From NCBI GenBank assembly GCA_913049555.1, contig CAJWYM010000027.1:1-42218 (forward strand): a DNA stretch of 42,218 nt, given 5' to 3'. The notes beneath the pieces are model-generated. The model did no database searches. It was given only the letters and a program-made list of their open reading frames with translations, and had not been told where the DNA came from. The position numbers were made by a program, and so were the translations under genes. This stretch comes from an uncultured Opitutia bacterium. Its GTDB lineage: Bacteria > Verrucomicrobiota > Verrucomicrobiia > Opitutales > CAJWYM01. Below are positions 6,857-38,969 of the stretch, in pieces (within the stretch, counting starts at the first letter, position 1; each line of letters starts with the position of its first letter).

Positions 6857-7894
6857 TTATACTTCTATCCAATTATTGATTTTATTTCTTAAATATTCAA
6901 TCCAAGCAGGGTGAGTATTGAGACAAGGGATTTGCTCGAACTCTTTACCTCCTGCTTTTAAAAAGTCTTCTTGCCCCTCCATTGAGATTTCTTCTAATGT
7001 TTCTAGGCAATCTGCGACAAACGCGGGACAAATGACAAGAAGTTTTTCAACCCCCTCCTGTCCAAATCGTTCTAATTCAAAATCAGTGTAAGGGGTCAAC
7101 CATGGATCCCGACCCAGGCGAGATTGAAAAGATACAGAATACTTATCTTCAGGGATTCCGGCCTTTTCAACAAAGGACCGAGTGGCTTCAAAACATTGAT
7201 GTCTGTAGCAAGTTGCGTGAGCAGGATTTGAGGTTTGGCAACAATCAGATCTAGACAGACAATGTGCATTGGTAGGATCCGATTTACGTAAATGCCTCTC
7301 TGGAATTCCATGAAAAGAAAAGAGCAACTTGTCAAAGCCACGATCTAAATAAGGCTTTGCGTTTTCCACCATAGCATTGATGTAATCAGGGTCATTGTAG
7401 AACGGTTGCAAAGTTTGTGTAATTATTTCAGGAGCAATTTCAGCTAGACACTCTTTGACTCGAACTTCCACAGTCTCGTAACTTGACATAGCATACTGAG
7501 GATAGAGTGGAATAATAAATAAATCAGTGACCCCATCCTGTTTTAGATCTGTGATCACGTCGAAAATAGAGGGATTTCCATACCTCATAGCCAAGGCAAC
7601 TGGAACGGATACTTGTTCTTGAACCAATTTTTGAGTTTTTTTGCTAGTAACGATTAAAGGAGATCCCTCATCCGTCCAAACTTTAGAATAAGCCTCCGCT
7701 GACTTTTTTGGTCTAGTTGGTAAAATCAAACCTTTGACCAAGAGTGCTCGGATTGGTTTTGGAACATCAATCACTCTTTCGTCCATTAAAAACTCATCCA
7801 AATACACACGAACATCTTTAACAGAAGTCGATTCTGGCGATCCCAGATTCAATAATAACACTGCCTGTTTTTGAATATTTTTAGATGATGCCAC
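6857..7894 (-). CDS. hemH: Ferrochelatase with internal cysteine segment
   Basis: Inserts ferrous iron into protoporphyrin IX (or coproporphyrin III), the last step of haem synthesis. The 345-residue protein opens with the family signature AVLLLNLGSPES. The metal-site His is in SFHGIPERH (His195), and the conserved acidic motif CLETLEEI lies near 296-303. Between His195 and about residue 235 it carries five cysteines (212, 218, 219, 229, 234) in a roughly 23-residue span. This matches a known class of bacterial ferrochelatases, described from Myxococcus and Bdellovibrio, in which four internal Cys bind a [2Fe-2S] cluster; I recall this from the literature and have not aligned it. First gene of the hemH-galK-gpmI unit. 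Confidence 0.93.
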   Translation of the reverse strand: MASSKNIQKQAVLLLNLGSPESTSVKDVRVYLDEFLMDERVIDVPKPIRALLVKGLILPTRPKKSAEAYSKVWTDEGSPLIVTSKKTQKLVQEQVSVPVALAMRYGNPSIFDVITDLKQDGVTDLFIIPLYPQYAMSSYETVEVRVKECLAEIAPEIITQTLQPFYNDPDYINAMVENAKPYLDRGFDKLLFSFHGIPERHLRKSDPTNAHCLSRSDCCQTSNPAHATCYRHQCFEATRSFVEKAGIPEDKYSVSFQSRLGRDPWLTPYTDFELERFGQEGVEKLLVICPAFVADCLETLEEISMEGQEDFLKAGGKEFEQIPCLNTHPAWIEYLRNKINNWIEV

Positions 7895-8264
7895 GGGATT
7901 GAATTATAATGAGAAATACGATGGATTAAATAAATCACTTTAGGGCCTCCTTCAAGTTAGTCAAACAAGCATTCAAGACGAATTGAAAAAGTAATCTTTT
8001 GATCTATTTGAATAATATTTGAACCGTAATACAGCGATAGAATCATTGAATCCAATCTTTTTCCTTCAACTGAAACTTGAAAAATGATTGATTTTAAGTA
8101 TTTTTTTTTAACCTATCCTCTATTTTGTTCTCTTTCCTCACCCGATCTCTTTTTTGAAAAACTTCATTTGCTTGAGAACATCCCTCTTGTATTACTTTCA
8201 AATTAATCGATTGGCTTATTCAAATCAACGATTTATGACTTCTATAAGTAGATTATTCTAATTT
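7895..8264. other. Divergent intergenic region, hemH / PEP-CTERM gene
   Basis: 370 nt without a credible gene, holding the divergent promoters of hemH (minus) and the 8265 gene (plus). It is AT-rich with a T9 run near 8101-8109. A possible plus-strand promoter is TTGCTT (8168-8173), 16 nt, TATTAC (8190-8195), about 70 nt before the start codon. I see no hairpin or repeat. Confidence 0.4.
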
Positions 8265-10613
8265 ATGCGCTTTTACCATCGAATGCTCATTCTCTTTGTG
8301 GGTACCCTTTCTTTCAACATCTACTCAGTGGATGTTCTCCATACTTATACTGGAGCGGATGGAGGTAATTTTTTGACTGATTCCAATTGGGATACTGGCA
8401 CCTACCCCAATGCTAATAACCATACCGTAACTTTCAACTCAGCGAATAGCAATGATCCTGTTCTATCAGGTTCGGCAACCATTAAATCTTTGGTGAATCC
8501 CTCCGACTCTCTGAGCGAGTGGCGAACGATTACGGGAGGGGGGACTCTCAATTTATCTGCAGATTCTGGCAACACAACCCTCACAAATTTAGACAATCAG
8601 TTTCTTACTTTGTATACGGATTTAAATGTTCTCAGTGACTTAGATGTCAATTTAACTGCGGGCGATATAAAGTTAGTCCGAGCATTGACTGGAACAAGCA
8701 CCAAAACCATAAACATTACCGGTCCCACGAATCTTTCAAAAGCTTTTTACTTAGAACCTAGTTACAATGCTGACAACAATACCTTTGCTGGAACTATTAA
8801 ACTCAACAATCGCACTCGATTAGTTCTAGGAAGTGCATCTCCATCTGGATCTAACCAAACCGTTCAATCAACGGGCTTGACTATCAAAGCAGCAACCACC
8901 AACTCCTACCAAAACATCCTTTTTATGGATAGGAATCAGACCGATTATGACTTTCAACTAGACATTATTGACAATAACACTGCTAAATTAATTTTAGAAA
9001 TTAGCACTTCAGCAGGAGCCAATGCTTACACTTATTCTGGATCCATGTATTCTAGAAACAGTGCAGATTCCTCTGTGGCGGCAGTCAATCGAAGTTTACA
9101 ATTTTCAACCAATGGAAAAAATTTAACCATTTCTGGCGATAATACTAATCTTACGTTAGCTTCTGCCAGCTATTCCATGCAATTTCAAAACGGAAATGGA
9201 ACTACAAGCAAGGTTTATATAGACAATGAGGATGCTTTAGGCGAAAACAATGGCAATAAACTCACCATAAACGATGAAACGGGTGCGATACAAATGCACA
9301 TTCTAAACAATCGAACTCTCTCGGGGAATTTACTTATAAAAGGAAAAAACGATGGAGTAAGCAACTTAATCGGTGGAAGCGACAGTGGATCCGCCTCCGG
9401 TTCGACTACATTCAGTGGGATCGTGCAACTCAATTCAAACTCAAGCAATTCTAACACTCGAAACTTGGAGTTGTGGTCTAACAACAATGAATCTGTTACT
9501 TTTTCAGGGAGGATTTCAGACAAAATAGCATCCAATTACACCGACATTTCTAAAACAGGAACTGGAACCGTCATTTTGTCAGCAGACAATACTTATGCAG
9601 GTAGCACTACAGTGAGCGCAGGGACTCTTCAAATTGCTCATCAAGACGGATTAGGTGAAAGCTCTTCAAATACCTCGAATACAACTACAACCATTAATAG
9701 TGGGGCAACTTTAGCTTTCAATAACTCGAGTGCTATGACTGTCTACGAAAACTTAAACCTTTCAGGAACTGGAGATTCAGGGCTTGGAGCTATTGATATA
9801 ATAGATGGTTCTCACTCCATCCAAGGAACGATTGCTTTATCAGCCGCATCCACAATAGATGTCTCCTCATCCGATGACACCCTAACATTAAACGGGGTAG
9901 TAAGTGGTTCGAATGCCCTAACTAAATCTGGAACAGGAGCTTTAAAATTAGGTGCATCGAACACCTACTCAGGAAATACGACTGTTTCTGCTGGAAGTTT
10001 ATATTTGAATAACAGTACCGGCAGTGCCGTTGGTTCAGGCAACCTATCTGTTTCCTCTGGAGCTTATGTTTTTGGAACTGGATCTATCTCAGGATCTCTA
10101 ACCAACCTTTCTGGAACTATTGATGCCGGCGATGGAGCCAATCAAATTGGTAAAATTACAATGTCTGGCTCCAATACTGATTTTTCAAATGGAACTTGGA
10201 TTTGGAATGTAAGTGATGTTGAAGGTTCTACTCCTGGAACTCATTGGGATGCCATTGAGTTTTCTAGCACCTACAATCTGAACAATTTATCTGGGTCTCC
10301 ATTGACTCTCAAAATTAGAAATAAAACCAATGGAAATTATCAATCTCTTGAAGGTTTAAGCTCATTTGGTTCCTCCTCAAATTATGGAAACGCAGGAGCT
10401 GGGGATTTAAAAATCATGGACAACATTTCCAATTTCAATGACGCTTACTTTACTGTTGATTCAGACATTCTTAATATTAACTGGGAACTCAAGCAAGTTG
10501 GAAGTGCACTTTGGCTGTCTTACAATGCTGTACCAGAGCCTAGCACTTGGATCACAATTGGATTTGTATGTATTATTTTGAGTTGGAAATTTGTTAAAAG
10601 CAAATTTCTATAA
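8265..10613 (+). CDS. PEP-CTERM surface protein with autotransporter-type beta-strand repeats
   Basis: A 782-residue exported protein. The N-terminus is a signal peptide (hydrophobic core LILFVGTLSFNIYS). The body is Ser/Thr/Asn/Gly rich and Cys-free, as in beta-helical stalks, and includes two clear autotransporter-associated repeats: SKTGTGTVILSADNTYAGST (about 428-447) and LTKSGTGALKLGASNTYSG (about 552-570), each followed by TTVSAG. The C-terminus is a textbook PEP-CTERM sorting signal: VPEPS at 756-760, one membrane helix and a Lys-rich tail. By family knowledge, exosortase would process it and it would end up in the envelope or extracellular matrix; no exosortase gene is in the window. 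There is no beta-barrel, so it is not a true autotransporter. It has no clear Shine-Dalgarno. The monocistronic setting beside the secretion locus is notable. Confidence 0.88.
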   Translation: MRFYHRMLILFVGTLSFNIYSVDVLHTYTGADGGNFLTDSNWDTGTYPNANNHTVTFNSANSNDPVLSGSATIKSLVNPSDSLSEWRTITGGGTLNLSADSGNTTLTNLDNQFLTLYTDLNVLSDLDVNLTAGDIKLVRALTGTSTKTINITGPTNLSKAFYLEPSYNADNNTFAGTIKLNNRTRLVLGSASPSGSNQTVQSTGLTIKAATTNSYQNILFMDRNQTDYDFQLDIIDNNTAKLILEISTSAGANAYTYSGSMYSRNSADSSVAAVNRSLQFSTNGKNLTISGDNTNLTLASASYSMQFQNGNGTTSKVYIDNEDALGENNGNKLTINDETGAIQMHILNNRTLSGNLLIKGKNDGVSNLIGGSDSGSASGSTTFSGIVQLNSNSSNSNTRNLELWSNNNESVTFSGRISDKIASNYTDISKTGTGTVILSADNTYAGSTTVSAGTLQIAHQDGLGESSSNTSNTTTTINSGATLAFNNSSAMTVYENLNLSGTGDSGLGAIDIIDGSHSIQGTIALSAASTIDVSSSDDTLTLNGVVSGSNALTKSGTGALKLGASNTYSGNTTVSAGSLYLNNSTGSAVGSGNLSVSSGAYVFGTGSISGSLTNLSGTIDAGDGANQIGKITMSGSNTDFSNGTWIWNVSDVEGSTPGTHWDAIEFSSTYNLNNLSGSPLTLKIRNKTNGNYQSLEGLSSFGSSSNYGNAGAGDLKIMDNISNFNDAYFTVDSDILNINWELKQVGSALWLSYNAVPEPSTWITIGFVCIILSWKFVKSKFL

Positions 10614-10785: not shown

Positions 10786-11259
10786 ATGATAGTATTGACC
10801 CCAGCAGAAATTTCTAAAACAGGAATCAGCCTCAGCCTTGGATCGCTTGCAGTAAACATCCCAAAGGGAGAACTAGATGCTTTAGGAAGTATGGGCGAGT
10901 GGGTCGCCTCTGATGGAGAATTGATTGTTCAAGAAGGCACTTATCAAAAACATCTTTACACTATCTTGGACGGTGAAGTGGACGTATTTAAAAAAAATGC
11001 AGACACCAAACAGATTCTGATTCGTCTCAGTTCGGGCACTCTTTTCGGTGAGATTTCTTTGCTTTCAGGGGGACAAGCTTCCGCAAACGTTGAAGCTGCT
11101 GGAAAAGCCATTCTCTGGAGAATAAATCACAAACACCTTATGGAATTTGTAGAAGGGTACAGTAGTGGGGGTCAAATTTGTATCAATCTCGCTAAAGTTC
11201 TCAGTGATAGATTGGTTCAAGCAAATGAAAAAATTGTTGATTTAGCTTCCAAAACCTAG
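10786..11259 (+). CDS. Stand-alone cyclic-nucleotide-binding-fold protein
   Basis: 157 residues forming one CRP-type cNMP-binding beta-roll (roughly 30-125: GELIVQEG, YTILDGEVDVF, GTLFGEISLLSGGQASANVEA) plus a C-terminal helix. There is no DNA-binding helix-turn-helix, so it is not a CRP/FNR regulator. The phosphate-binding cassette keeps Gly88-Glu89, but where CRP has GQERSA this protein has GQASA: the phosphate-contacting Arg is absent. It may therefore bind no cyclic nucleotide, or a different ligand. It is the first gene before the tolC-ABC-HlyD set. cNMP domains are known as parts of some peptide-exporting ABC systems (NHLM-type and cyanobacterial HlyB-like), which suggests a regulatory subunit of this exporter. 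Confidence 0.75.
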   Translation: MIVLTPAEISKTGISLSLGSLAVNIPKGELDALGSMGEWVASDGELIVQEGTYQKHLYTILDGEVDVFKKNADTKQILIRLSSGTLFGEISLLSGGQASANVEAAGKAILWRINHKHLMEFVEGYSSGGQICINLAKVLSDRLVQANEKIVDLASKT

Positions 11260-11486: not shown

Positions 11487-12800
11487 ATGTATACCTCCAA
11501 CCTGCTGTGCTGGTTCTGTGTCGTGTTCTATTGGTTCTCACCTTTGGTTCTAGCGGATGGAAGTATAAGAACCAACAATTTAATTTTGTGGGATGCCATT
11601 CTAAAAGCCATAAAAACCAACCCTGACATTGTTGCCTCACAGCAAAATTTAATTACAAGAAAACAGCAATACCGACAAACTCAAGCCACTTATCTTCCTA
11701 GTATAAGAGCTGGTTTTTCTGCAAACTACAACTACAGCACCAACCTAAAAAAGGAACCTTATTCTGGATCCATATCAGCCACTCAGAAACTACTCAATCT
11801 CTCTCAAATTCAAACGATCCGAAAAAGTAAAAAAAGCTACGAGTCCTCTAATTTCTCTCTTGAGTCCACCAAACAAAATATAATTTTAACTACCACGAAT
11901 ACCTACATTGATTTGATTTCTCAATTTAAAGTAGTTGAGCTTTCACAAAAAAACTACCAACTCACGAAAAAACACGTGGATGCTACGCAACAAAGATATG
12001 CAGCAGGCGAATTGACCAAAACCGATGTGAATCAAGCCAAAAGTAGACTTGCAAATGCGAAAGCTACTCTTGTCAGAGCCATAAAAGTTGCAGACGTAGT
12101 CCGTAAAAGGTACAAACAAATTGTGGGCAGCATCCCACCCAAAATTCTAAAAATTCCTTCTGTAAATTCAGGAGACATTGAAAATCAGTTCTCTAAAAAT
12201 AAGCACACTTTATTTTCTCACCCGACATTACTTATAGCAAAATCCTCCCTCGAATCTGCAAAGATAGATCAAGTAGAAGCCCGCTCCGATTTTTATCCAA
12301 CCATAGATTTATCTGCCAGCGGAAATGTCACCTTGGAAAGTGAAACTCTTCAATTTGAAGATTACAGGGATAGCTACTTAGTTGGTGTAAGCGTTACGAT
12401 CCCTATCTTTTCAGGAGGAGGGCGATTCTATAAATTGAAAGAAAAGCTTTCTGAAAGAAAACTTGAGGAAGCCGAGTATGAAAGCACGAAGCGCCAAATT
12501 AAATTTGCATTAGACTCTGCTTTGTTAGAGTTGAATATAGCCAGAGAATTGGAAGAGGTTTTCATTGAAGGAGTCCAAGCATCGAAAACGGCTTTAGAGG
12601 GGGTCCAAGAGGAATTTGAGGCAGGTGCCAGAATTGCACTCGATGTTTTAGATGCTCAAAACGAATTGTTCAGCGCGGACATTTCGCTGGTAAAAGCTCG
12701 ATTTGATATTATCAAAGCTCAATTCCAATTACTTTCAAGTTCCGGAACCTTAACTTTATCTCAACTTAGAGTAGCAATGTCCGATCCAAAGAAGAGATGA
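11487..12800 (+). CDS. TolC-family outer-membrane channel of a type I secretion system
   Basis: 437 residues with an N-terminal signal peptide (hydrophobic LLCWFCVVFYWFSPLVLA). Two half-repeats of the outer membrane efflux family follow: long amphipathic coiled-coil helices (AILKAIKTNPDIVASQQN and, in the second half, HPTLLIAKSSLESAKI). Channel-tip motifs YAAGELTKTDVNQAKSRL and EFEAGARIALDVLDAQNEL match those of TolC proteins. By family knowledge it forms a trimeric channel docked to HlyD-type adaptors. Its stop overlaps the next start by 4 nt (ATGA at 12797-12800), so it is co-translated with the ABC gene. This is the first gene of the tight block tolC-ABC1-hemerythrin-ABC2-hlyD. Confidence 0.9.
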   Translation: MYTSNLLCWFCVVFYWFSPLVLADGSIRTNNLILWDAILKAIKTNPDIVASQQNLITRKQQYRQTQATYLPSIRAGFSANYNYSTNLKKEPYSGSISATQKLLNLSQIQTIRKSKKSYESSNFSLESTKQNIILTTTNTYIDLISQFKVVELSQKNYQLTKKHVDATQQRYAAGELTKTDVNQAKSRLANAKATLVRAIKVADVVRKRYKQIVGSIPPKILKIPSVNSGDIENQFSKNKHTLFSHPTLLIAKSSLESAKIDQVEARSDFYPTIDLSASGNVTLESETLQFEDYRDSYLVGVSVTIPIFSGGGRFYKLKEKLSERKLEEAEYESTKRQIKFALDSALLELNIARELEEVFIEGVQASKTALEGVQEEFEAGARIALDVLDAQNELFSADISLVKARFDIIKAQFQLLSSSGTLTLSQLRVAMSDPKKR

Positions 12801-14488
12801 ATAAAGGAGGTTTACAAGATTTATTAAGACTTCCCAATTTCAAATCGATGGGATTGGATTTAATGCTCTCTACAACTTGCATCAACTTATTATCTTTAGC
12901 TCTACCCTTAACGATGATGCAAGTGTTTGATCGTATTATTGGCAATAAATCAACGGGAACTTTAGCATGGCTGATATTAGGTTGCTTGACTGCAATGTTT
13001 TTTGAAAATGCACTCAAATTTGTAAGGACATCCATCAGCGGATGGCTCGGCGCAAGATTTGAATATAAATTAAGCAACGACGCAGCAAAAAAAGTACTTT
13101 CCTCTCGTTTGGATGATTTTGAAAAAGATCCTGTTGGAAAACATATGGAACGTTTCAATGCGATCAATGATCTTCGCAATTTTTACAGTGGACAAGTGTT
13201 TCAAGTCCTACTAGATCTTCCCTTCGCATCCCTGTTTCTTTTTGGAATTTATTTATTAGGAAATTCACTCGTTTTGTTTCCTATTGGGATGGCAATTCTT
13301 TATTTTCTGGTGTTCTTTTATTTGCAAAGCAAATACAAACAATCAAGAAACAGTCAACAGGATGCCGTTGAGGGAAGGATGAGTTTTCTAATTGAATCTT
13401 TGCGCAGAATTCATATGTCAAAGACTTTATCCATGGAGGAACAGATCTTAAGAAAATATGAACATTCGCAAAAAAAGGAGGCCTCTGCCAATCTAACCAT
13501 GCTGTTTTGGACCATGACTCCGAGTCAGATTGGTGGATTGTTTACACAGTGTATGATGTTTGGAACAATTTTTCTAGGAGCCTCCTCTATTATGGATGGT
13601 TCCATGACGATCGGTTCGCTTACGGCTTGTATGATGATGAGTGCTCGATTTATGACTCCAATTCAAAGTGTTTCAGGATTTTTCCTTCAATATACCAGAT
13701 CCAAGTTGGCAAAAGAAAAACTAAATCTGATTCATGAAATGCGAGACGATGTCCCAGAGGGTTTACCCATATTTCCTGAAATCAATAAAGGTTCCATCGA
13801 GCTCCAAGACATCTCTTTTAGATATGGAACAGACAAACCTTGGGTGGTAAAAAATTTAAACTTAAAAATTAGGGATGGGGAGCTTACAGTGATTACATCC
13901 AACAGAGGCGAGGGAGCAACTACTTTGCTGAACTTAGTTATGGGAACTTTAAAACCCGAAAAGGGCGAGGCGCTTATTGGCAATCACAGATTGAGCCAAT
14001 GGGATCATTCAGACTTCCGAGGACATGTCGAATTTCTCTCTTATCAACCACACATATTTAGCGGAACTATTCTTGAAAACATCACCATGTTTCATCCAGA
14101 AAGAGAGAGTGCCGCCTTAGAAGCTTCAAGTATTATTGGTCTTGTTGGTGGGGTTTCTCAGATGCCCCTCGGCTTTGCAACTCCTTTAACTCCTCAGTCT
14201 GCACTGATGCTCCCTGCCTCCATTTTGCAAAAAATTGCGTTATCTCGTGCACTTACAGTTCGACCCAAAATTCTCTTATTAGACCGAACAAGTTCTATGA
14301 TGGATACAACCAGTGAAGAGAGATTTTTTTGGTTGCTGGATCAATTAAAAGGTCAAAGCACGATTCTATTCGCGACAGACAGTTCGAGAGCCATGGAAAT
14401 GGCAGATAGAATCTACGAACTCAAAGAAGGTCATTTAAGCAATCTATTCCGAATTAGAACACAGATCAAAAAAAGGAATGTAAAGTGA
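12797..14488 (+). CDS. Type I secretion ABC transporter subunit with degenerate ATPase domain (ABC1)
   Basis: 563 residues: an N-terminal exporter-type membrane domain (about 20-300, several hydrophobic helices) fused to an ABC nucleotide-binding domain (about 333-550). The fold is recognisable (IELQDISFRYG; Q-loop SYQPHIFSGTILENI), but the catalytic residues are gone. The P-loop reads SNRGEGAT, with Ala374 where the essential Lys belongs; Walker B is ILLLDR, with Arg497 in place of the catalytic Glu; the LSGGQ signature is LPASI (472-476); and the H-loop His is Asp528. It should not hydrolyse ATP by the usual mechanism. It probably heterodimerises with the second ABC protein at 15822. Linked by 4-nt overlaps on both sides. 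Confidence 0.85.
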   Translation: MNKGGLQDLLRLPNFKSMGLDLMLSTTCINLLSLALPLTMMQVFDRIIGNKSTGTLAWLILGCLTAMFFENALKFVRTSISGWLGARFEYKLSNDAAKKVLSSRLDDFEKDPVGKHMERFNAINDLRNFYSGQVFQVLLDLPFASLFLFGIYLLGNSLVLFPIGMAILYFLVFFYLQSKYKQSRNSQQDAVEGRMSFLIESLRRIHMSKTLSMEEQILRKYEHSQKKEASANLTMLFWTMTPSQIGGLFTQCMMFGTIFLGASSIMDGSMTIGSLTACMMMSARFMTPIQSVSGFFLQYTRSKLAKEKLNLIHEMRDDVPEGLPIFPEINKGSIELQDISFRYGTDKPWVVKNLNLKIRDGELTVITSNRGEGATTLLNLVMGTLKPEKGEALIGNHRLSQWDHSDFRGHVEFLSYQPHIFSGTILENITMFHPERESAALEASSIIGLVGGVSQMPLGFATPLTPQSALMLPASILQKIALSRALTVRPKILLLDRTSSMMDTTSEERFFWLLDQLKGQSTILFATDSSRAMEMADRIYELKEGHLSNLFRIRTQIKKRNVK

Positions 14489-15825
14489 GCAAATCATCTC
14501 CTCTAGTAAGTTGGGGTGTCCAAACAGCTGAAACTGAATCTGATCTATCGCTTTCAGTTGGAAAAACTGGGGTCACAATGTTGGATGAGGGGATGGGACG
14601 CTTGATGGATTACGCCTTAATAATCAATGGGTATTTGGAAGATCCAGTTGCAGGAACGATAAAGCTTGATTCTACAGATAAATTTAAAGAATTGCTCAAC
14701 GAGATGATTGAATTTTCTAAATCATATTTTAGATTTGAAGAAAACTTAGTCAAAAAAAACTTTCTACCTTGGTTGGCATTTCATAAAGAAGAACATCAAA
14801 AAATTTTAAACCTTTTAAACGAAAATTCTAAAAACGTTGCTGCTGGTCAGCTTTATGTCACACCTGATTTCCAGATACAATTATTAGAATCTCTAATCAA
14901 CCATGTGAACAAAGCAGATTGTCCCTCTTTCAATCAGAAATACCGATCTAAAGCACTTTTAAATCTAAAATCTTCCGAGGAACTTCTTGTATTTGTTCCC
15001 TCTACAGGGATATCGCCTGTGGATCAAAATATTGAGACATTCTGTAAATCCCTAAGCCAAGTAAGTTCTTATTTTCAGTATTATGAGAATAAATCACCAA
15101 ATGAGAAAGAATGGTTCCAAATACAAACCTTTTTTAATAACTTTTACCACCACATACGCGCCCATTTTGACTTCCAAGAACAATTCATAAAAAAGATCGG
15201 TCTATCAGGATATTTGGCACACAAAAAAGATCATTGGGTATTTTTAAATTCAATTTCTAACTTTTGTAGAAAGATTGCTGCAAGACAAGCTGTGTTTAGC
15301 TCTAATATTCATCTAGGAACCCTTAACTGGTGGCTTACCCATTTCAAGGAAGAAGATTGTAAATTATTCGATTCAAAAAAAGTTTTTCGGTGCGCCTTGG
15401 AAGAATCGAATGTTTGGAATGATTTCGAGTGGATGTTTGCTGATTTCGAGGACAATTCAATTCAATTAAAATTAAAATTGGTTATTCAGGAATTCTTAAA
15501 AGCAATCCCACTGATTCTTAACAAAGAAGGAACTGAGAAAATTTCTAATCCATTCAAGTCTGCTCTGGAATCCTTAAAAAAAATGTTTAAGGAAGAGGAA
15601 AGCTCTGATCAAAGATTGAAATGTAGCATTCCTCATAAGATCGAACACAGAAATATTGAAAATCAAATTCAAGAAGTAATCGAGAGTATTGAAACAAACC
15701 GCGTGGGTCTCAATCATTTACTGGTAGAGGACACTCTCAGTTCCCTAGTATTTCATTACAATAGATCCGATTTTCGCGACTACCAACTTTTTAAAAATCT
15801 TTCTTTTGAGGAAATTCAGCCATGA
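14485..15825 (+). CDS. Protein with two degenerate hemerythrin-like repeats
   Basis: 446 residues, no signal peptide. Two repeats follow the bacteriohemerythrin ligand spacing exactly alike. Repeat 1: Tyr81 (first His lost), Glu85, His100-x3-His104, His140, Asp145. Repeat 2: His227, Gln231 (Glu lost), His246-x3-His250, His286, Asp291. In each, the first helix residue normally His is absent (DEGMGRL, DQNIETF). Neither repeat keeps a full diiron ligand set. A helical C-terminal third (about 310-446) has no repeat I can assign. The GTG start at 14485 overlaps the ABC1 stop by 4 nt, with AAGGA upstream, and its own stop overlaps ABC2 by 4 nt. It is thus embedded in the exporter operon and is probably an accessory or sensor subunit of it; its biochemical role is unknown. 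Confidence 0.75.
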   Translation: MSKSSPLVSWGVQTAETESDLSLSVGKTGVTMLDEGMGRLMDYALIINGYLEDPVAGTIKLDSTDKFKELLNEMIEFSKSYFRFEENLVKKNFLPWLAFHKEEHQKILNLLNENSKNVAAGQLYVTPDFQIQLLESLINHVNKADCPSFNQKYRSKALLNLKSSEELLVFVPSTGISPVDQNIETFCKSLSQVSSYFQYYENKSPNEKEWFQIQTFFNNFYHHIRAHFDFQEQFIKKIGLSGYLAHKKDHWVFLNSISNFCRKIAARQAVFSSNIHLGTLNWWLTHFKEEDCKLFDSKKVFRCALEESNVWNDFEWMFADFEDNSIQLKLKLVIQEFLKAIPLILNKEGTEKISNPFKSALESLKKMFKEEESSDQRLKCSIPHKIEHRNIENQIQEVIESIETNRVGLNHLLVEDTLSSLVFHYNRSDFRDYQLFKNLSFEEIQP

Positions 15826-17942
15826 GCATTGAAGAGAAGGATAAAGATACCTCATTTTTTCAACCTAGCAACTCTTTGTCAAAGGCTATTCGGCCCTTGT
15901 TAACCTCACTGGGTTGGCGCGGAGAGGATCAATCTCTCATTGAGGCAATGCCTAACAATCCAGATGATATCACTCTGGATGGATTGTTGGATACAATGGC
16001 GAATTTAGGCTATCATTACAATTGCGTTCATCGCTCTATCCATCGAATCAGTCAACGAGAACTTCCTTGTTTATTCATTCCCAAAGATGGAAAGGTTACC
16101 GTTATTGTCAAAAGTGATCATAAACACATATTTGGTTATGATACTGAAAATGAAAATTACAAAGTTTTTGAAGACAAAAGAAAGTCCGGTCAATGCTTCC
16201 TATTCTCTCGCTTGTCAGAAAGTGACCGCGCGTTGGATAAAGACACATCCCTATGGACTTTAAAATTAGCCAGACGATTTACTAGTTTATTTGGTATCTG
16301 TCTAATGATTAGCTTCTTGTTGAGTTTATTAGCATTTGTTACTCCGTTGTTTATTATGACAGTTTACAACCGTGTATTTGCATCTGGTGCGATTGACGCC
16401 ATGAAATACCTTGGATTCGGCATTCTCATTTATCTCATTGCTGATCTTGGTTTAAATATGATGAGGTCTTCTATCCTCTCATTTATAAGTTCGAGAATAG
16501 GCTACCTCCAAGGGAACCAACTCATGAGAAGAATCCTCTATTTTCCATCCAAGGAGACAGAGGGGATTCCCTTAAATTTACAACTTAACAAGTTGAAGGA
16601 TTTTGAAGCCATCAAAGATTTTTTTGGAAGTCCTACTATGGCTACTTTAATTGAACTTCCCTTCTTAGCTTTATTAATTGGGGGCATGTACGCTTTGGCT
16701 GGAACAGCTGCTTTAATTCCAATATTAGCAATTGCAATTTATCTAGTATTTGTTGGTTGTATTTACAAAACCGTCAACAACTACGTTATGGATGGAGGGA
16801 TCGCCATGATTAGTAAGCAAGACTTTTTACTCGAGATCTTAAGCAATCTTAGGGCAATCAAATACACCGCAACAAAGCTTCACTGGGAAGAAAAGTATGC
16901 ATCTCTCAGTGCAGAATCAGCCATCTCTAATTATAAAAGTGGACAAGTGAATGCGATCGTTTCCGCAGTTTCCGGCAGCATTGTATCTGTGGCTGGAATT
17001 TTAACCATCGGATTTGCAGTTACAGGTGTCATTTCAGGAGAAATGTCTTCAGGGGCTCTCATGGCTTGTATGCTATTAGTTTGGAGAATATTAGGACCCC
17101 TTCGCAACGGGTTCGGAACCATTCTTCACGCCCTTCAAATCTATCGAGGTGTTGGACAACTCGATAAATTTATGGAGCTAGAAATTGAATCGCCTCAAGA
17201 TTCTTACACATCCTCCAAGAAGAAGCTGAACGGCAACATTTACTTTCATAATGTAACTCATCGCTACAACAGAAATGCTCATCCAGCTCTTTATGAAGTA
17301 AATTTTGAAGTAAAACCAAAAGAATCCCTTTTAATAATGGGGCATGACGGTGCTGGTAAATCAACAATTCTTAAGATGATTATGGGTCTCTATACTTCTC
17401 AAAGTGGAGTAGTAGCTGTGGACAATACAAGTATTCGACAAACGAACCCTATCGAGTTAAGAAAAGCAATTACCTATGTGCAGGCTGAACCCTCATTTGT
17501 TCACGGTAGCATTTACGAGAATTTAAGATTAGTAAATTTAAATGCGAGTGAATTTCAGCTTGAGGAAGCTTTAAAACGAGCTGGAGTGTGGGCAGACATT
17601 ATTGAATTAGAAAATCAAGGAAAACATATTTTAGACCCGCTCCATTTGGATTCCTATCCAGCACATTTATTAAAAAGAATCAATACGGCTCGATTATTCC
17701 TCCAAGACTGTTCAATTATGTTGATAGATGAGCCAGACAGATCCTTACAAGACAGTCATCATACTCAAATCATAAAAGGACTCTCCACCTTCAGAGAAAG
17801 CGCGACATTAGTAGTTGTTTCTAACAATCCTCGTTATTTCGATTTAGCGGATCATATACTTTGGATGGATCAAGGTAGAATTAGGGAATTTGGAAGAAAA
17901 GAGGAAGTAGAAAAAGTTTGCTTAGAGTACCTATCTAATTAA
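15822..17942 (+). CDS. Type I secretion ABC transporter with C39-like N-terminal domain (ABC2)
   Basis: 706 residues. Residues about 20-130 resemble the C39-like domain of HlyB-type exporters (LPCLFIPKDGKVTVIV, HIFGYDTENENYKVF) but without the catalytic Cys context of a peptidase, so substrate binding rather than cleavage is expected. A membrane domain (about 150-440) and an ABC domain (470-700) follow. Walker A GHDGAGKST (507-515) and Walker B IMLIDEP (632-638) are intact. The signature LSGGQ is replaced by SYPAH (611-615), and the H-loop His appears as Asn in VVSNNP (about 666-670). Together with ABC1 this would give a heterodimer with at most one weakly canonical ATP site. It starts by a 4-nt overlap with the hemerythrin-like gene and is followed by hlyD after 8 nt. 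Confidence 0.87.
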   Translation: MSIEEKDKDTSFFQPSNSLSKAIRPLLTSLGWRGEDQSLIEAMPNNPDDITLDGLLDTMANLGYHYNCVHRSIHRISQRELPCLFIPKDGKVTVIVKSDHKHIFGYDTENENYKVFEDKRKSGQCFLFSRLSESDRALDKDTSLWTLKLARRFTSLFGICLMISFLLSLLAFVTPLFIMTVYNRVFASGAIDAMKYLGFGILIYLIADLGLNMMRSSILSFISSRIGYLQGNQLMRRILYFPSKETEGIPLNLQLNKLKDFEAIKDFFGSPTMATLIELPFLALLIGGMYALAGTAALIPILAIAIYLVFVGCIYKTVNNYVMDGGIAMISKQDFLLEILSNLRAIKYTATKLHWEEKYASLSAESAISNYKSGQVNAIVSAVSGSIVSVAGILTIGFAVTGVISGEMSSGALMACMLLVWRILGPLRNGFGTILHALQIYRGVGQLDKFMELEIESPQDSYTSSKKKLNGNIYFHNVTHRYNRNAHPALYEVNFEVKPKESLLIMGHDGAGKSTILKMIMGLYTSQSGVVAVDNTSIRQTNPIELRKAITYVQAEPSFVHGSIYENLRLVNLNASEFQLEEALKRAGVWADIIELENQGKHILDPLHLDSYPAHLLKRINTARLFLQDCSIMLIDEPDRSLQDSHHTQIIKGLSTFRESATLVVVSNNPRYFDLADHILWMDQGRIREFGRKEEVEKVCLEYLSN

Positions 17943-17950
17943 GGACATTT

Positions 17951-19261
17951 ATGAGTAGTGAAAACGACATATCCCACCTAACAAAGTCTGGCCTTCTTGA
18001 GGAAACTGGAACCCCCATGTTTCTCAAAATTTTCACTTGGTTTGCAACGCTCCTTTTCTTGGCTTTCGTTGCTTGGACAATTATCACAGGATTGGATGAA
18101 GTAGCTTCTGCTAAAGGTGAGATTATACCCAGTGGGCATGTTCAAAAAATCCAGCATTTGTCTGGAGGTATGATAGAGGGCATTCAAGTTGAAGAGAGAG
18201 ATTATGTTAATCAAGGAGATATTTTGTTAAAGCTAGATCCATTAACTTCTGAGACTCAGCTTGCACAAAGTGAAGGGCAAATGTTAACGCTAAAACTCAA
18301 AAAAGAGCTTTTAGAAGCTGTTATTGAGGATAGAAAACCTAATTTTGCAGAAATAGACAATATAAACCAAATTCTAATTAAAGAGCATCTGCAACAATAC
18401 AAACAACAATCGATGTCGGATCAGTCATCAAGATTGACATTGGAAAGTCAAATTGAACAAGCAAAATCCGATCTTGCTGAAGTTAATATCAATGAAGCCA
18501 AGTTGATGCGTAAACAAGAATTTCTTGAAGAGGAGATGAAAATAAGAAGAGGTCTTGTAGAAAAAGGTTTGAATTCAAAAATGCTGTTTTTAGCTCTCAA
18601 AAGACAACAGAGCGACTTAACGGGTTCCATAGAACTAATTCCTCCAACAAGATCCAAAATCAAAAAACGAATTGAGGAATTAAACAGTCGGTTGCAAGAA
18701 CAAGAATCTACGAAGATGAAAGATCGATTGAAAGAAATTAGCGGGCTAAAGGATCAAATCTTTAATCTTAACAAAGACCTTTTCAAGCACAGAAAAAGCG
18801 TCGAACAAATCACTATTACTGCTCCATTCAGTGGATATGTTCATAATTTAAAAAAACATGCAGTAGGCGAAATTATCTCAGGGGGTGAAGTCATCATGGA
18901 ACTTGTTCCGCTAGGGAAGGAATTTCTAGCTGAAATTAAAATCTCATCCAAAGACATTGGACACGTTGAGACAAATCAATCAGTTCTTCTAAAGTTCACA
19001 ACCTATGATTTTCTTAGATATGGCGGAATGAAAGGGCAACTTAAGGAAATATCTCCCGCAGCCTTTTCAGACAGCGGCGACCCTTATTACAAAGGAATTG
19101 TCAGTTTCGGTAAAAATTATTTTGGAAACGATCCCAAAAAAAATCCTATATTTCCCGGAATGACCCTAACAGCAGAAATTAATACTGGAAAAAAAACAGT
19201 CATAGAATACCTTTTAAAGCCTATTTTTGTTTCCGCCAATCAAGCAATGAGGGAAAGATAA
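17951..19261 (+). CDS. HlyD-family membrane fusion protein
   Basis: 436 residues linking the inner-membrane ABC exporter to the TolC channel. A short cytoplasmic N-terminus, one membrane helix (about 24-47), then the lipoyl-like half-motif HVQKIQHLSGGMIEGIQVEE (63-82) with GDILLKLD. Long Gln/Glu/Lys-rich coiled-coil hairpins (about 100-280) are followed by the returning lipoyl half APFSGYVHNLKKHAVGEIIS and a beta-barrel region ending in a conserved PGMTLTAEINTGKKTVIEYL tail. Length and order are those of type I secretion adaptors. AAGGA (17941-17945) overlapping the ABC2 stop is a good ribosome binding site, so it is the last gene of the co-translated block. Confidence 0.92.
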   Translation: MSSENDISHLTKSGLLEETGTPMFLKIFTWFATLLFLAFVAWTIITGLDEVASAKGEIIPSGHVQKIQHLSGGMIEGIQVEERDYVNQGDILLKLDPLTSETQLAQSEGQMLTLKLKKELLEAVIEDRKPNFAEIDNINQILIKEHLQQYKQQSMSDQSSRLTLESQIEQAKSDLAEVNINEAKLMRKQEFLEEEMKIRRGLVEKGLNSKMLFLALKRQQSDLTGSIELIPPTRSKIKKRIEELNSRLQEQESTKMKDRLKEISGLKDQIFNLNKDLFKHRKSVEQITITAPFSGYVHNLKKHAVGEIISGGEVIMELVPLGKEFLAEIKISSKDIGHVETNQSVLLKFTTYDFLRYGGMKGQLKEISPAAFSDSGDPYYKGIVSFGKNYFGNDPKKNPIFPGMTLTAEINTGKKTVIEYLLKPIFVSANQAMRER

Positions 19262-19412: not shown

Positions 19413-19985
19413 ATGGCAGATGTGAACCAACCCGATAATATTGAACCAAACCCAGCAGACACTGGACCGCAAGCAGGAGGTGAAACGGTTCCTCCAGTAG
19501 GAGATCCCGGCCCAGCGGGTGGTGACACAGGACCAGCAAGTGCAGACATGGCTCCTCCTCCGGGTGACATGGCTCCTCCTCCAGGGGATATGGCTCCTCC
19601 AACAGATATGGCTCCACCTCCGGGTGACATGGCTCCACCAACAGGGGATATGGCTCCTCCAACAGACATGGCTCCACCTCCGGGTGATATGGGATCTGGA
19701 GCGGATGCTCAGGATCCGATGGCTGGCGGAACGGCTCCAGATACTGGTGGAATGCAAGAAACTGCAGCGCCCCCTCAAGGAGATGCAGGAGGTCCTGAAA
19801 GTGCAATGCCACCGGCAGGAGACTCTACACAAGAAGGTCAACCCCCAATGGACGACGGCGGTGCTAACATGCCAGCGGATTCAGCAGGTGCATTTGGAAC
19901 AGGTGCTGGAGAAGCACCAATAACAAATGACGCAGGTCCAACAGACACAGGTGCGGGAGTAGATGCTGATTCACTCTCGATTTAG
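19413..19985 (+). CDS. Acidic Pro/Gly/Asp/Met repeat protein, putative type I secretion substrate
   Basis: 190 residues starting at an ATG with a good AAGGA site 6 nt upstream. The sequence is built from Pro, Gly, Asp, Ala, Thr and Met, and contains no Lys, Arg, His, Cys, Trp or Tyr, so it is strongly acidic and surely disordered. Residues 45-91 are seven DMAPP(P/T)(G) units. There is no Sec signal or membrane segment. The last residues, GVDADSLSI, have the acidic-plus-hydrophobic look of C-terminal type I secretion signals. It lies 151 nt after hlyD and before a strong terminator, so it most likely is the exported cargo of the preceding machinery. No RTX nonapeptide is present and no enzyme domain is seen. 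The opposite-strand frames over it are artefacts of its repeat codons. Confidence 0.7.
   Translation: MADVNQPDNIEPNPADTGPQAGGETVPPVGDPGPAGGDTGPASADMAPPPGDMAPPPGDMAPPTDMAPPPGDMAPPTGDMAPPTDMAPPPGDMGSGADAQDPMAGGTAPDTGGMQETAAPPQGDAGGPESAMPPAGDSTQEGQPPMDDGGANMPADSAGAFGTGAGEAPITNDAGPTDTGAGVDADSLSI
19545..19685 (+). repeat. In-frame 60-nt tandem repeat (21+21+18 nt units)
   Basis: Seven coding subunits of the form GA(C/T)ATGGCTCC(T/A)CC... in the order 21, 21, 18, 21, 21, 18, 21 nt form a higher-order period of 60 nt (20 residues). 19561-19620 and 19621-19680 differ at only a few positions. In-frame and codon-preserving; likely to vary in copy number between strains. Confidence 0.9.
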
Positions 19986-20008: not shown

Positions 20009-20039
20009 AAGGCCGAAGATTAATTCTTCGGCCTTTTTT
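20009..20039 (+). terminator. Strong rho-independent terminator of the secretion locus
   Basis: A perfect 11-bp GC-rich stem (AAGGCCGAAGA at 20009-20019 with TCTTCGGCCTT at 20025-20035), a 5-nt loop, and a T-run to 20039. It lies 23 nt after the stop of the repeat protein and closes the region. Confidence 0.95.
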
Positions 20040-35713: not shown

Positions 35714-37321
35714 TTACATCCACTTGGAGGAAGCTTGATTCTTCATAAGTTGCGCTCGATTCGATTGAAAGTTTTTCAATGCTGCAACTGTCTTGTCTAA
35801 TTGCGCCTTCATTGTTTTATCGTCAGGAGACTTCGCTAAATTTTGCTTAATATCCAAAATCTGATTTCCCTTCTCCAGTATCCAATTGTCCAACTCCTCT
35901 AGGCGAGTATCATAGACCTCTTGCATCGACCAAGCTCCCACTTTCTCTAAATAAGCATCCAATTTTTTAATCATAGATACTTTTCTCTCAGGCATAATAT
36001 TGGAGAGATCTGTAGTTTCTCCCATATCCTCAGATACATTGAATAGTTTCGTTTCCCCTGAATTTAAATGACGCATCAGTTTATAATCCCCGTCTCTGTA
36101 AGAGGTGATTGGATGTGTGTAAAAAGCTGGAAAATGAAAGACTAATCCTGTGTCCCGAGTAGCAATTTCGCCCTCGTTGCCATTCTTAAAAACAGAACTT
36201 AGATCGACACCATCTAAATCTGTCGGAAGTGGAGACTCACTCCCAGATAGACTGTGCATAGTTGGCATATAGTCCCATTGTGCGACCGGAATGTCACATT
36301 GAGAATTGGCAGGAATCCCTGGGCCAGTAACGATCATCGGGATTCGAATACCGCCCTCCCACATTTTTGCTTTGCCTCCTTGTAATGGAGCGTTGGACTG
36401 GCCTCCTCCATTGTCAGAAGAAAACATTACATAAGTATTTTCATCCAATCCTAGCTTTTGGAGTTTATCTAGCACCATTCCAATTGAGGTATCCATATTT
36501 TCCATCATGGCTGCGTAATTTGCAGTTTCCCAAATACTGCGGTATTTGGCTGGCATTTCTTTTGCATTTTTATCGAATTTAGAAATATCAGGAATTACTT
36601 CCTCAATCCCCTTTCTATCCGCCATAATATCTAAATATTTTCTTCGAGTACTCTTTAGAGAAATGTTTCGAACATGCAAGGCATAATGGGAAATAGTCAG
36701 AAAAAACGGCTTGTTGTCTTTAGCTCTTTTTTCCAAAAAATTAACCGAGGATTTAGCAAGACTGAAAACACGTTTTGGATCATCAAGAGGAATCAAAGTC
36801 CTCTTTGTGGGCTCCCACCAATCCCCATGAGCGTTGCCATTTGGATGAGTATGGATAAAATCTGTTTCATCATAGCCGTGGTCTTTGAACCATGATAGAG
36901 GAGTAGCTCCTTTCCCGAAGAAAGCATTGATGTAGCCCTTGTTTGATTCTTTCAACATCTCAGCCAATGAAAGTTCCTTTTCAAAATCCACATCTCTCTT
37001 ATTCATAACTACATCATGAATGGAGATACATCCCACTCTCGCGGGGGTTTTACCAAACTGAATACTAACTCTTGAAGGAGTGCAAACCGGTGAAGGGCAG
37101 TAAGCACTTGAAAAACGCATACCACGCTCCGCCATTTTCTCAAGATTTGGAGTTTGATGAAGAGCGTGCCCAAGTTCTGGTCGATCTTTCATCATTGGAA
37201 CACTGGTTTGGGTATATCCAAGATCATCCGCGTAAATGATAATGAAATTAGGATCCTTGGCTGACAAAAAATTGCAGACAAGCAATAATAAAATAAGGCT
37301 TATAGTGTGATAGATTTTCAT
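35714..37321 (-). CDS. Exported sulfatase, formylglycine type (sulfatase A)
   Basis: 535 residues with an N-terminal signal peptide (LILLLLVCNFLSA). Arylsulfatase-family S1 enzyme hydrolysing sulfate esters. The two metal Asp are Asp32-Asp33 in YADDLGY; the active-site motif is CTPSR (Cys80-Arg84), whose Cys would be oxidised to formylglycine by FGE. FSSDNGGG and PLQGGKAKMWEGGIRIP are typical of the fold. A charged helical tail ends the protein. Last of three tandem sulfatase genes, 5 nt from the next. The substrate cannot be told from the sequence; sulfated marine glycans are likely. No FGE gene in the window. Confidence 0.93.
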   Translation of the reverse strand: MKIYHTISLILLLLVCNFLSAKDPNFIIIYADDLGYTQTSVPMMKDRPELGHALHQTPNLEKMAERGMRFSSAYCPSPVCTPSRVSIQFGKTPARVGCISIHDVVMNKRDVDFEKELSLAEMLKESNKGYINAFFGKGATPLSWFKDHGYDETDFIHTHPNGNAHGDWWEPTKRTLIPLDDPKRVFSLAKSSVNFLEKRAKDNKPFFLTISHYALHVRNISLKSTRRKYLDIMADRKGIEEVIPDISKFDKNAKEMPAKYRSIWETANYAAMMENMDTSIGMVLDKLQKLGLDENTYVMFSSDNGGGQSNAPLQGGKAKMWEGGIRIPMIVTGPGIPANSQCDIPVAQWDYMPTMHSLSGSESPLPTDLDGVDLSSVFKNGNEGEIATRDTGLVFHFPAFYTHPITSYRDGDYKLMRHLNSGETKLFNVSEDMGETTDLSNIMPERKVSMIKKLDAYLEKVGAWSMQEVYDTRLEELDNWILEKGNQILDIKQNLAKSPDDKTMKAQLDKTVAALKNFQSNRAQLMKNQASSKWM

Positions 37322-37326
37322 AGTAT

Positions 37327-38925
37327 TTAATTAATGTTAGCTGTGCCACGATCTTCGTGCAGTTTTATCAAGCGCTTGGATCTTTCCAATTGAGAGTCCT
37401 GAAAGTTTACATGATTTTGGGATACATCTACTTGGAAAGCTTTTTGTTTGTTTGTTGGATCGGCACTCAATGCCGATTTAAGATTGGCCAAGCGTTTTTT
37501 CCCATCTTTAATCCAACCCCCCTCCAAAAGTTCGACATAATTTCGGCGAGTCAAAGTGACTGTTTCAGCTTGAACATCCTCCAAGTATTTAGATCTCTTT
37601 TGATCCAACTTACGAACCAATTCAGGCATTTGAGGAGCCAAATCCGAAGCTTCACCCATATCACTGCGAAGGTCAAAAAGTTTCATTTCTAAAGTGTCTA
37701 AATTTTTATGAAGCTTGTATTTGCCTGAGCGAATTACAGACTCGGGATTTCCAGTATGCCATGGAAAATGGAAAATCAAATCCTTGGTATTTCTTTTCAC
37801 TCGACCCAGATTTCCCTTCTCAAAAACATCCCTTAAGCTTCCTCCGTCCAAATCTTTAGGCAAGGGATCCTTTCCTCCAGCTAAGTCATAGAAAGTTTGT
37901 AGGAAATCCCACTGAACGACCGGTACATCGCAGTAACTTCCCTTCTCAATGTTTGGTCCTGTTACTAACGAAGGCATTCTAATCCCACCCTCATAAAGAC
38001 TGCCTTTGCCTTCTTTAAGGGGTCGGTTCCCTCTAAAACCTCCGCCGTTGTCGGAAGTAAATACAACATAGGTGTTCTCACTAATTCCCAATTCATCTAA
38101 AGAATCCAGTAGTTTTCCCAACGCACGATCCACATCATCCAGCATCGCCGCATAATTTATAATCCATCCATGGTTAAACATAGCTACAGGAATTTCTGAT
38201 TCAGGAAGATCGTCTTTCGCTATGTGTTTTTTGCTTTTGGGCAACTTCATATACTTTTCTCTAGTTTCTTTGTGAGAATCATGCCAGATGTGCATTGCGT
38301 AATGAGAAAGTTGCAAATAAAAGGGTTTTTCTGCCTCCACTTGATCTTTCATAAAATCAATACTTTTTTCAGTAAGAGAGGAAATTCTTTTAGGATCCTT
38401 TTCGGGAAGATGGGTTTTTCCATCGTCATCAAAATCACCAGGTCCATTTCCATTAGGACCGTCTGTCACGTCATAACCTGCTTCTTTTGGTTTGATGCTT
38501 TCATTGTGCCACTTCCCAAAATGAGCGGTTTGATAATTAGGATTTGCCTTCTTTAAAGCCTGCGGAATTGTAATTTGTCCAAGATATTGTTTTTGTGCTT
38601 CTATCGCAGAAAGAACTGTATATCGCAAACGACTGGGTGTCATTCCATGAAGGAGACTATTCCTTGAAGGTGCACAAAGAGACGAAGGTGAATAACAGGC
38701 TGAAAGGACCATTCCGTTTTGCGCAAGTCTTTCAACATTAGGAGTCTGATTGAAGTCGCTACGCGTATCATCGTTCCCCTTGATCATAGGCACTGTTGTT
38801 TCTGCCCAGCCAAGATCATCCATGTAAATCAATAAAAAATTGGGTGCCTTCGCTGCATTAGAAATAGAAGTCAATGCCAAGAAGGCGATTGTCATTATTT
38901 TGTTTATTTGTGAGGTTCGTTTCAT
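37327..38925 (-). CDS. Exported sulfatase, formylglycine type (sulfatase B)
   Basis: 532 residues with a signal peptide ending near SISNAA. Metal site MDDLGW (Asp36-Asp37), active-site CAPSR (Cys84-Arg88), FTSDNGGGF, and PLKEGKGSLYEGGIRMP. It shares the whole plan and many motifs with the flanking sulfatases (QTPNVERLAQNG, HYAMHIWHDS), so the three arose by duplication, but they have diverged widely. 44 nt downstream of sulfatase C and 5 nt upstream of sulfatase A, so most likely one transcript. Confidence 0.93.
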   Translation of the reverse strand: MKRTSQINKIMTIAFLALTSISNAAKAPNFLLIYMDDLGWAETTVPMIKGNDDTRSDFNQTPNVERLAQNGMVLSACYSPSSLCAPSRNSLLHGMTPSRLRYTVLSAIEAQKQYLGQITIPQALKKANPNYQTAHFGKWHNESIKPKEAGYDVTDGPNGNGPGDFDDDGKTHLPEKDPKRISSLTEKSIDFMKDQVEAEKPFYLQLSHYAMHIWHDSHKETREKYMKLPKSKKHIAKDDLPESEIPVAMFNHGWIINYAAMLDDVDRALGKLLDSLDELGISENTYVVFTSDNGGGFRGNRPLKEGKGSLYEGGIRMPSLVTGPNIEKGSYCDVPVVQWDFLQTFYDLAGGKDPLPKDLDGGSLRDVFEKGNLGRVKRNTKDLIFHFPWHTGNPESVIRSGKYKLHKNLDTLEMKLFDLRSDMGEASDLAPQMPELVRKLDQKRSKYLEDVQAETVTLTRRNYVELLEGGWIKDGKKRLANLKSALSADPTNKQKAFQVDVSQNHVNFQDSQLERSKRLIKLHEDRGTANIN

Positions 38926-38969
38926 AGATAAGTAAGGATATTGAAGAATGATCTTTGGAATCTATTCTT

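Follow-up and report, generated by a model that had tools for sequence, protein, structure and literature searches.

A probable type I secretion operon of an Opitutia bacterium in which both ABC proteins lack the LSGGQ signature

Gene content of the locus

The DNA analysed here, which we call the window, is a stretch of 42,218 nucleotides from an uncultured Opitutia bacterium (contig CAJWYM010000027.1 of assembly GCA_913049555.1, positions 1 to 42,218 of the forward strand). It holds a five-gene cluster that, judged by its domain content, is a type I secretion system (T1SS), with a TolC-family channel, an HlyD-type adaptor and two T1SS-type ATP-binding cassette (ABC) proteins, ABC1 and ABC2. 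The LSGGQ signature is lost from both ABC proteins, and neither of the two ATP sites that they would form together is canonical, suggesting that a conserved pump may run with little or no ATP hydrolysis.

The cluster lies on the plus strand and is arranged as TolC-ABC1-hemerythrin-like-ABC2-HlyD, with all five genes open. The first gene encodes the outer-membrane channel (11487..12800, 437 aa), which exceeds the cut-off of the TIGR01844 type_I_sec_TolC model (265 bits, cut-off 225). It is followed by ABC1 (12797..14488, 563 aa), a half-exporter with a degenerate nucleotide-binding domain (NBD) and no N-terminal C39-like domain, in which the Pfam domains ABC_membrane and ABC_tran cover residues 24-288 and 351-496, respectively. 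Between ABC1 and ABC2 stands the gene for a hemerythrin-like protein with tandem domains (14485..15825, 446 aa), which the TIGR02481 model identifies as a bacteriohemerythrin-domain protein (84.8 bits, cut-off 51.75). ABC2 (15822..17942, 706 aa) carries an N-terminal extension in place of the C39-like domain and matches TIGR03375 over residues 19-696, and the periplasmic adaptor (17951..19261, 436 aa) scores 337 bits with TIGR01843 type_I_hlyD (cut-off 209). A first-pass annotation, made from the DNA letters alone, had described the ABC1 gene as intact and part of a tight operon, and both statements hold: 12797-14488 is open throughout, and the genes of the cluster are joined by three four-base overlaps, ATGA (the TolC stop and ABC1 start), GTGA and ATGA.

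The best NCBIfam model for both ABC proteins is TIGR03375, the LssB family, with 351 bits for ABC1 and 392 bits for ABC2 against a cut-off of 693.1. It is also the best model for the six orthologous halves tested (207-472 bits across the set), and the likeness to LssB extends to the N-terminal domain of ABC2 and to the HlyD and TolC partners. In contrast, all window and orthologue scores stay below the 693-bit cut-off, which a canonical protein (locus L060) passes with 911 bits, and the window has two subunits instead of one, both without LSGGQ. The closest solved structure for ABC1 and ABC2 is HlyB (best match in the PDB, E-values 2.8e-48 and 9e-45), which differs in having canonical motifs in the alignments (entry 8dck has Gln at the Walker B Glu, and 7sgr has Glu).

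Motif states and composite ATP sites

In motif alignments, the Walker A motif of ABC1 is reduced to the remnant S368-NRGEGATT-376 (13898..13924), where the Lys is replaced by Ala374 (codon GCA at 13916). The signature is LPASI (residues 472-476, 14210..14224) instead of LSGGQ, the Walker B motif reads ILLLDR (14270..14287), with Arg497 (CGA at 14285) in place of the catalytic Glu and Asp496 retained, and the H-loop His column holds Asp528 (GAC at 14378, 14378..14380). These four losses had been reported in the first-pass annotation and are real, an independent HMMER alignment to HlyB giving the same result. The same annotation had stated that ABC1 keeps its Q-loop, which is wrong: both our alignment and the HMMER alignment with HlyB place Tyr416 (14042..14044) in the Gln column, and Q417 falls one residue later. 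Its further statement that every catalytic motif is lost was right in those four motifs and slightly overstated as a whole, because the A-loop Tyr343, the Walker B Asp496 and the D-loop Asp503 persist. The NBD fold, also said to be kept, is predicted to be so: residues 324-553 of the ABC1 structure model match ABC NBDs in the PDB with Z scores of 25-26. This model has a mean predicted local distance difference test (pLDDT) score of 54.9, rising to about 62-82 in the blocks of the NBD and poor elsewhere, and its transmembrane domain (TMD) was left unused.

As comparators we used sequences obtained from similarity searches and not picked by motif, of which 46 remained once three near-duplicates had been removed. 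The Walker A Lys, the Q-loop Gln, the signature Ser and Gly4, the Walker B Asp and Glu, and the H-loop His are present in 46/46 comparators, and the substitutions in ABC1 are therefore not chance variation. Among the comparators is a locus (L103, G544:C4, 1170-7039) where an HlyD gene is flanked by two canonical T1SS-type ABC genes, possibly a two-ABC T1SS with intact motifs.

ABC2 has an intact Walker A motif, GHDGAGKS with Lys513 (17340..17363), and an intact Walker B motif, IMLIDE with Glu637 (17715..17732). The Q-loop Gln is replaced by Ala555 (17484..17486), the signature is YPAHL (residues 612-616, 17655..17669), the H-loop His is replaced by Asn668 (17823..17825), and the D-loop column holds Gln643. 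The first-pass annotation had located the oddity in ABC1; the ABC1 losses stand, and what it missed is that the partner is degenerate too, so that the oddity belongs to the ABC1-ABC2 pair.

According to the account of exporter ATP sites in PMC7756269, each site combines the Walker motifs and the A-, Q- and H-loops of one NBD with the signature of the other, and because of this pairing neither composite site of the window is canonical. In site A, formed by the ABC1 Walker motifs and the ABC2 YPAHL, the Lys, Gln, Glu, His and LSGGQ are all gone. Site B, formed by the ABC2 Walker motifs and the ABC1 LPASI, retains the Lys, Asp and Glu and lacks the Gln, the His and LSGGQ. The window pair thus departs from the canonical arrangement, with GxxGxGK, Q, LSGGQ, DE and H in each site, and also from that of one degenerate plus one fully canonical site, as Q, LSGGQ and H are missing from site B.

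Degenerate pairs in other lineages

The family of the window organism comprises a single genome, and no orthologue emerged when 177 genomes of its order, its own included, were searched with a single sequence, the best other matches being canonical and 26% identical. When 387 genomes of the phylum were searched with ABC2, a single genome from another class, G640, stood out (444 bits; the runner-up reached 221), and 197 genomes of that class, searched with a profile, yielded G640 alone (next match 234 bits). Its contig L099 carries ABC1, a hemerythrin-like protein, ABC2, HlyD and a VCBS/cadherin repeat protein, in this order, the last gene being cut by the contig end. Identities to the window are 34% for ABC1, ABC2 and HlyD and 21% for the hemerythrin-like protein. 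G640 ABC1 has an LPASM signature, FDR at Walker B and Glu in the H-loop His column, and G640 ABC2 keeps GAGKS, Q and DE and has an FSEAF signature and an H-loop Asn; the DR, LPAS and H-loop Asn are identical in the window and G640.

In the class of the window organism, a profile search of 384 genomes singled out G273 (732 bits, next 335), where only the gap to the remaining matches is informative, as the profile included the window and G273 sequences. In the G273 locus (L058), ABC1 and ABC2 overlap by four bases and are followed by HlyD. In its ABC1, which is 28% identical to that of the window, Walker A and the Q, E and H residues are lost. Its ABC2 retains Walker A, but the catalytic Glu is replaced by Asn and the His by Ser, and the signature reads VLTPV; the catalytic Glu, the H-loop His and LSGGQ are therefore gone from both subunits. 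Because the G640 and G273 orthologues are broken at the same positions as ABC1 of the window, we rejected a sequencing error or a local mutation as the source of the losses. No close homologue with intact motifs, which would have spoken for such a local change, was found in these searches. Decay or sequencing error is unlikely, and the view of the first-pass annotation that this is a maintained pseudo-ATPase is supported by the overlapping operon and by the equally broken orthologues. A scan of genome contigs gave seven loci, of which L037 and L038 contain full-length, canonical relatives and the other five only short-stretch matches, and viral contigs gave 76 pattern matches and no relative.

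A search of 72,556 plasmid records with ABC1 (threshold E 1e-30) matched 1371 records. Among the best 20 of these, the top four are Azospirillum megaplasmids and the only matches at 32-33% identity, the fifth having 29%. In 4/4 of the Azospirillum records a single protein of 1354-1378 aa contains ABC1 followed by ABC2, and a search of the plasmid records with the fused protein found the same four and none further at E 1e-60. This single-chain fusion suggests that the ABC1 and ABC2 halves work together. HlyD lies 3' of the fused gene, and an adjoining divergent gene of 14-17 kb is annotated as 'Ig-like'; in A. lipoferum, the one record of the four where it was read in part, this giant gene has cadherin, Big_9 and RTX repeats. 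The Azospirillum N-half keeps the Lys and Glu, with LPRGA as signature and Ser for the H-loop His. Since these two residues are kept, their loss from ABC1 is not family-wide. In the C-half, K, Q, E and H are all present and the signature is LSPSL, and site B of the fusion thus departs from canonical in LSGGQ only.

Phylogeny and selection

A maximum-likelihood tree was computed from 56 sequences and 580 columns, with five ABC1 and five ABC2 sequences. The ABC1s and the ABC2s form separate clades (ultrafast bootstrap 98 and 100) near the LssB-like exporters, so grouping among ABC proteins of T1SS type, with the canonical rhizobial L037 placed beside the ABC1 clade (joint branch support 86) and a branching order that differs between the two clades. 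None of the four lineages (window, G640, G273 and Azospirillum) retains LSGGQ in either ABC1 or ABC2. The signature Ser at position 2 is Pro in 5/5 ABC1-clade sequences, and the signature Gly4 and Gln5 are lost in 5/5 ABC2-clade sequences; the Walker A Lys is kept in 5/5 ABC2 sequences and the Walker B Asp in all ten sequences of the two clades.

The fused Azospirillum gene is under purifying selection, with a ratio of nonsynonymous to synonymous substitution rates (dN/dS) of 0.17-0.25. The C-terminal NBD has the lowest values (0.06-0.10), followed by the N-terminal NBD (0.16-0.35) and the linker (0.32-1.0), and the signature codons of the four records show synonymous differences only.

Energy conversion by the ABC1-ABC2 pair

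The reading that we favour, with a probability of about 0.5, is that of a T1SS heterodimer in which one site is dead and the other is a non-canonical ATP-binding site, with ATP binding as the main driving force. ABC1 and ABC2 would form a heterodimeric inner-membrane exporter with HlyD and TolC, in which site A would be dead, probably without binding Mg-ATP, and the ABC1 NBD would serve as a non-catalytic structural and C-loop partner. Site B, with Lys513 and Glu637 facing LPASI, would be the only site able to bind ATP well; binding there would provide most of the power for transport, and slow hydrolysis or nucleotide exchange would reset the cycle. The hemerythrin-like protein would act as an accessory in the cytosol or as a regulator that senses redox state or iron. 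With LSGGQ, the Gln of the Q-loop and the His of the H-loop missing from site B, hydrolysis should be slow, and a binding-driven pump is possible because the power stroke of TmrAB comes from ATP binding, as stated in PMC7205462, and Pdr5 still works with its nucleotide-binding site 1 (NBS1) stripped of all four motifs, as described in the section of PMC7756269 on that protein.

Several observations weigh against this reading. In a passage of PMC7756269, ABCC1 with an H-loop Asn in NBS2 is described as having wild-type-like transport, which argues for some hydrolysis, so that site B may be faster than we assume. The dN/dS ratio could be measured for Azospirillum alone, where the motifs are less damaged, and the genome of the window organism has no RTX or Big_9 cargo. 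In ABC1 of the window, 7/15 catalytic and 17/33 other conserved NBD positions are kept (Fisher p 1.0), the erosion not being concentrated in the catalytic set; a selective loss of catalytic over structural residues, which we considered, is thus unsupported. Moreover, the ratio of NBD to TMD identity between the window and G640 (0.92 for ABC1, 0.80 for ABC2) is below that of all 927 canonical pairs (minimum 1.00). This ratio and the even erosion are compatible with a general relaxation of the NBDs too; together with the purifying selection, they indicate NBDs under altered, weaker constraint that are nevertheless not free.

The same two signs, and the lack of an obvious cargo, would fit an exporter that is relaxed or decaying on its way out. 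We find this very unlikely, given five open genes with three overlapping junctions, a degenerate pair retained by four lineages that have unusual residues in common, and purifying selection on the Azospirillum copies. That site B hydrolyses at a normal rate, making the pair an ordinary asymmetric exporter with a single active site and an unusual but working C-loop, is rather unlikely in our view: besides the behaviour of ABCC1, it would agree with the Lys and Glu kept by ABC2 in the window and G640 and with the Azospirillum site B, which lacks LSGGQ only, but site B of the window has neither the Gln of the Q-loop nor the His of the H-loop, nor the C-loop Ser and Gly, and in G273 ABC2 the catalytic Glu and the His are replaced by Asn and Ser, respectively.

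At the other extreme, the pair would hydrolyse no ATP and would be an ATP-gated, or proton-motive-force- or folding-driven, protein conduit that retains the ABC architecture. Such a conduit would suit G273, which has no catalytic Glu, H-loop His or LSGGQ in either subunit, and the dependence of HlyB on its E631/H662 dyad, reported in PMC8277102, which also argues for weak hydrolysis in the window pair. We regard it as quite unlikely, since the Walker A Lys of every ABC2 and the Walker B Asp of both clades suggest that Mg-nucleotide still matters, and most catalytic residues are kept in Azospirillum. Finally, the pair might not be the motor at all, with a canonical ABC subunit acting in trans or ABC1/ABC2 serving as sensor or scaffold, as might be imagined from the additional ABC protein that MARTX systems use (PMC3034196). 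This appears extremely unlikely: for the six top-ranking other ABC exporters of the genome, the best match is to MsbA or glucan-exporter models and not to T1SS models, and the exporter annotated at the Azospirillum locus is one fused protein with HlyD only.

Beyond the binding-driven heterodimer that we prefer, one may speculate that this is a conserved family of protein-secreting exporters that gave up ATP hydrolysis. The heterodimers of its most derived members, G273, the window and G640, with at most one ATP-binding site, would then be ATP-gated or binding-driven conduits for unfolded proteins, the hemerythrin subunit of the window and G640 would tie export to the redox or iron state, and the fused Azospirillum protein, with its milder losses, would be an intermediate stage. 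We think it rather improbable that all of this holds.

Comparison with known exporters

Two features of this system have precedents. The passage of PMC3034196 on the MARTX T1SS of Vibrio (RtxB, RtxD, RtxE and TolC) states that two ABC proteins appear necessary, a likeness to the window drawn from description and not from sequence; hemerythrin, in contrast, is part of the window operon and is not mentioned for MARTX in that passage. Degenerate single ATP sites are common among ABC exporters, as treated in the relevant part of PMC7756269, and in Pdr5, ABCG5/G8, TAP, CFTR and TmrAB, as in the window, one composite site has lost motifs; in Pdr5 the four are all gone, the Walker A Lys among them. 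The first-pass annotation had held that the P-loop Lys of heterodimeric exporters normally survives even in the degenerate site, a rule with known exceptions, the same part of that source listing Cys in Pdr5 and Arg in ABCG5/G8. In these exporters the other site is canonical, whereas the second site of the window also lacks LSGGQ, Q and H.

What appears to be new is the loss of both signatures and the presence of hemerythrin in the operon, neither of which we found described for a T1SS exporter in open-licence papers of PubMed Central. A standing question is whether the binding of ATP suffices to drive an ABC exporter. In the degenerate exporters covered by published reviews one site is still canonical, and the ABC1/ABC2 family would offer natural exporters with none, at graded stages of motif loss from Azospirillum to the window and G640 and then to G273. 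The fused form, from named Azospirillum strains, would allow both halves to be purified together at a fixed 1:1 ratio.

The hemerythrin-like protein

The operon adds a hemerythrin-like component to the repertoire of type I secretion, the gene standing at the position of the Azospirillum linker. TIGR02481 matches the G640 protein in three stretches (160.5 bits). By eye, against what we take to be the di-iron ligand pattern (H...HxxxE...HxxxH...HxxxxD), the window domains seem to be without the early ligands and the third G640 domain seems complete. The protein has no full-length relative beyond the window in 159 genomes of the order, its own included, where three other genomes gave matches of 76-87 residues only, and no relative in the 72,556 plasmid records. 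Its structure model (41.7) was too poor for use. A sensing or a scaffolding role may be envisaged. Directly upstream of the degenerate pair of G273, L058 encodes at 7173-7937 a RIC/YtfE-type di-iron iron-sulfur repair protein (TIGR03652), which is either a second link of hemerythrin folds to the exporter or a coincidence.

Candidate cargo and neighbouring genes

Downstream of HlyD, a plus-strand gene (19413..19985) encodes a 190-aa Pro/Gly/Ala/Asp repeat protein with DMAPPPG-like repeats, which matches no model of Pfam or NCBIfam, lacks a paralogue in the genome and is possibly a T1SS cargo. It is followed by a terminator-like hairpin on the same strand (20009..20035), with 11 pairs and a T tract, the longest stem of a scan that gave 8 sites against 7.6 expected, so that it counts as a consensus match only. 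Adhesin-like genes adjoin the exporter loci of G640 and Azospirillum.

Upstream of the cluster, the window encodes a 782-aa protein with PATR (autotransporter-passenger) repeats (8265-10613), the tail of which we take to be PEP-CTERM-like. Just before the TolC gene lies a gene for a 157-aa cyclic-nucleotide-binding-domain protein (10786-11259), with a weak match to TIGR03896, a cyclic nucleotide monophosphate-binding family associated with bacteriocin transport. In another family of the order (f13), a protein with response-regulator and PAS domains is encoded between the TolC and ABC genes of a T1SS operon (L062, 9941-10822), and L060 has a gene of similar size at the same place. Further downstream in the window, three consecutive sulfatase genes occupy 35714-40670 on the minus strand.

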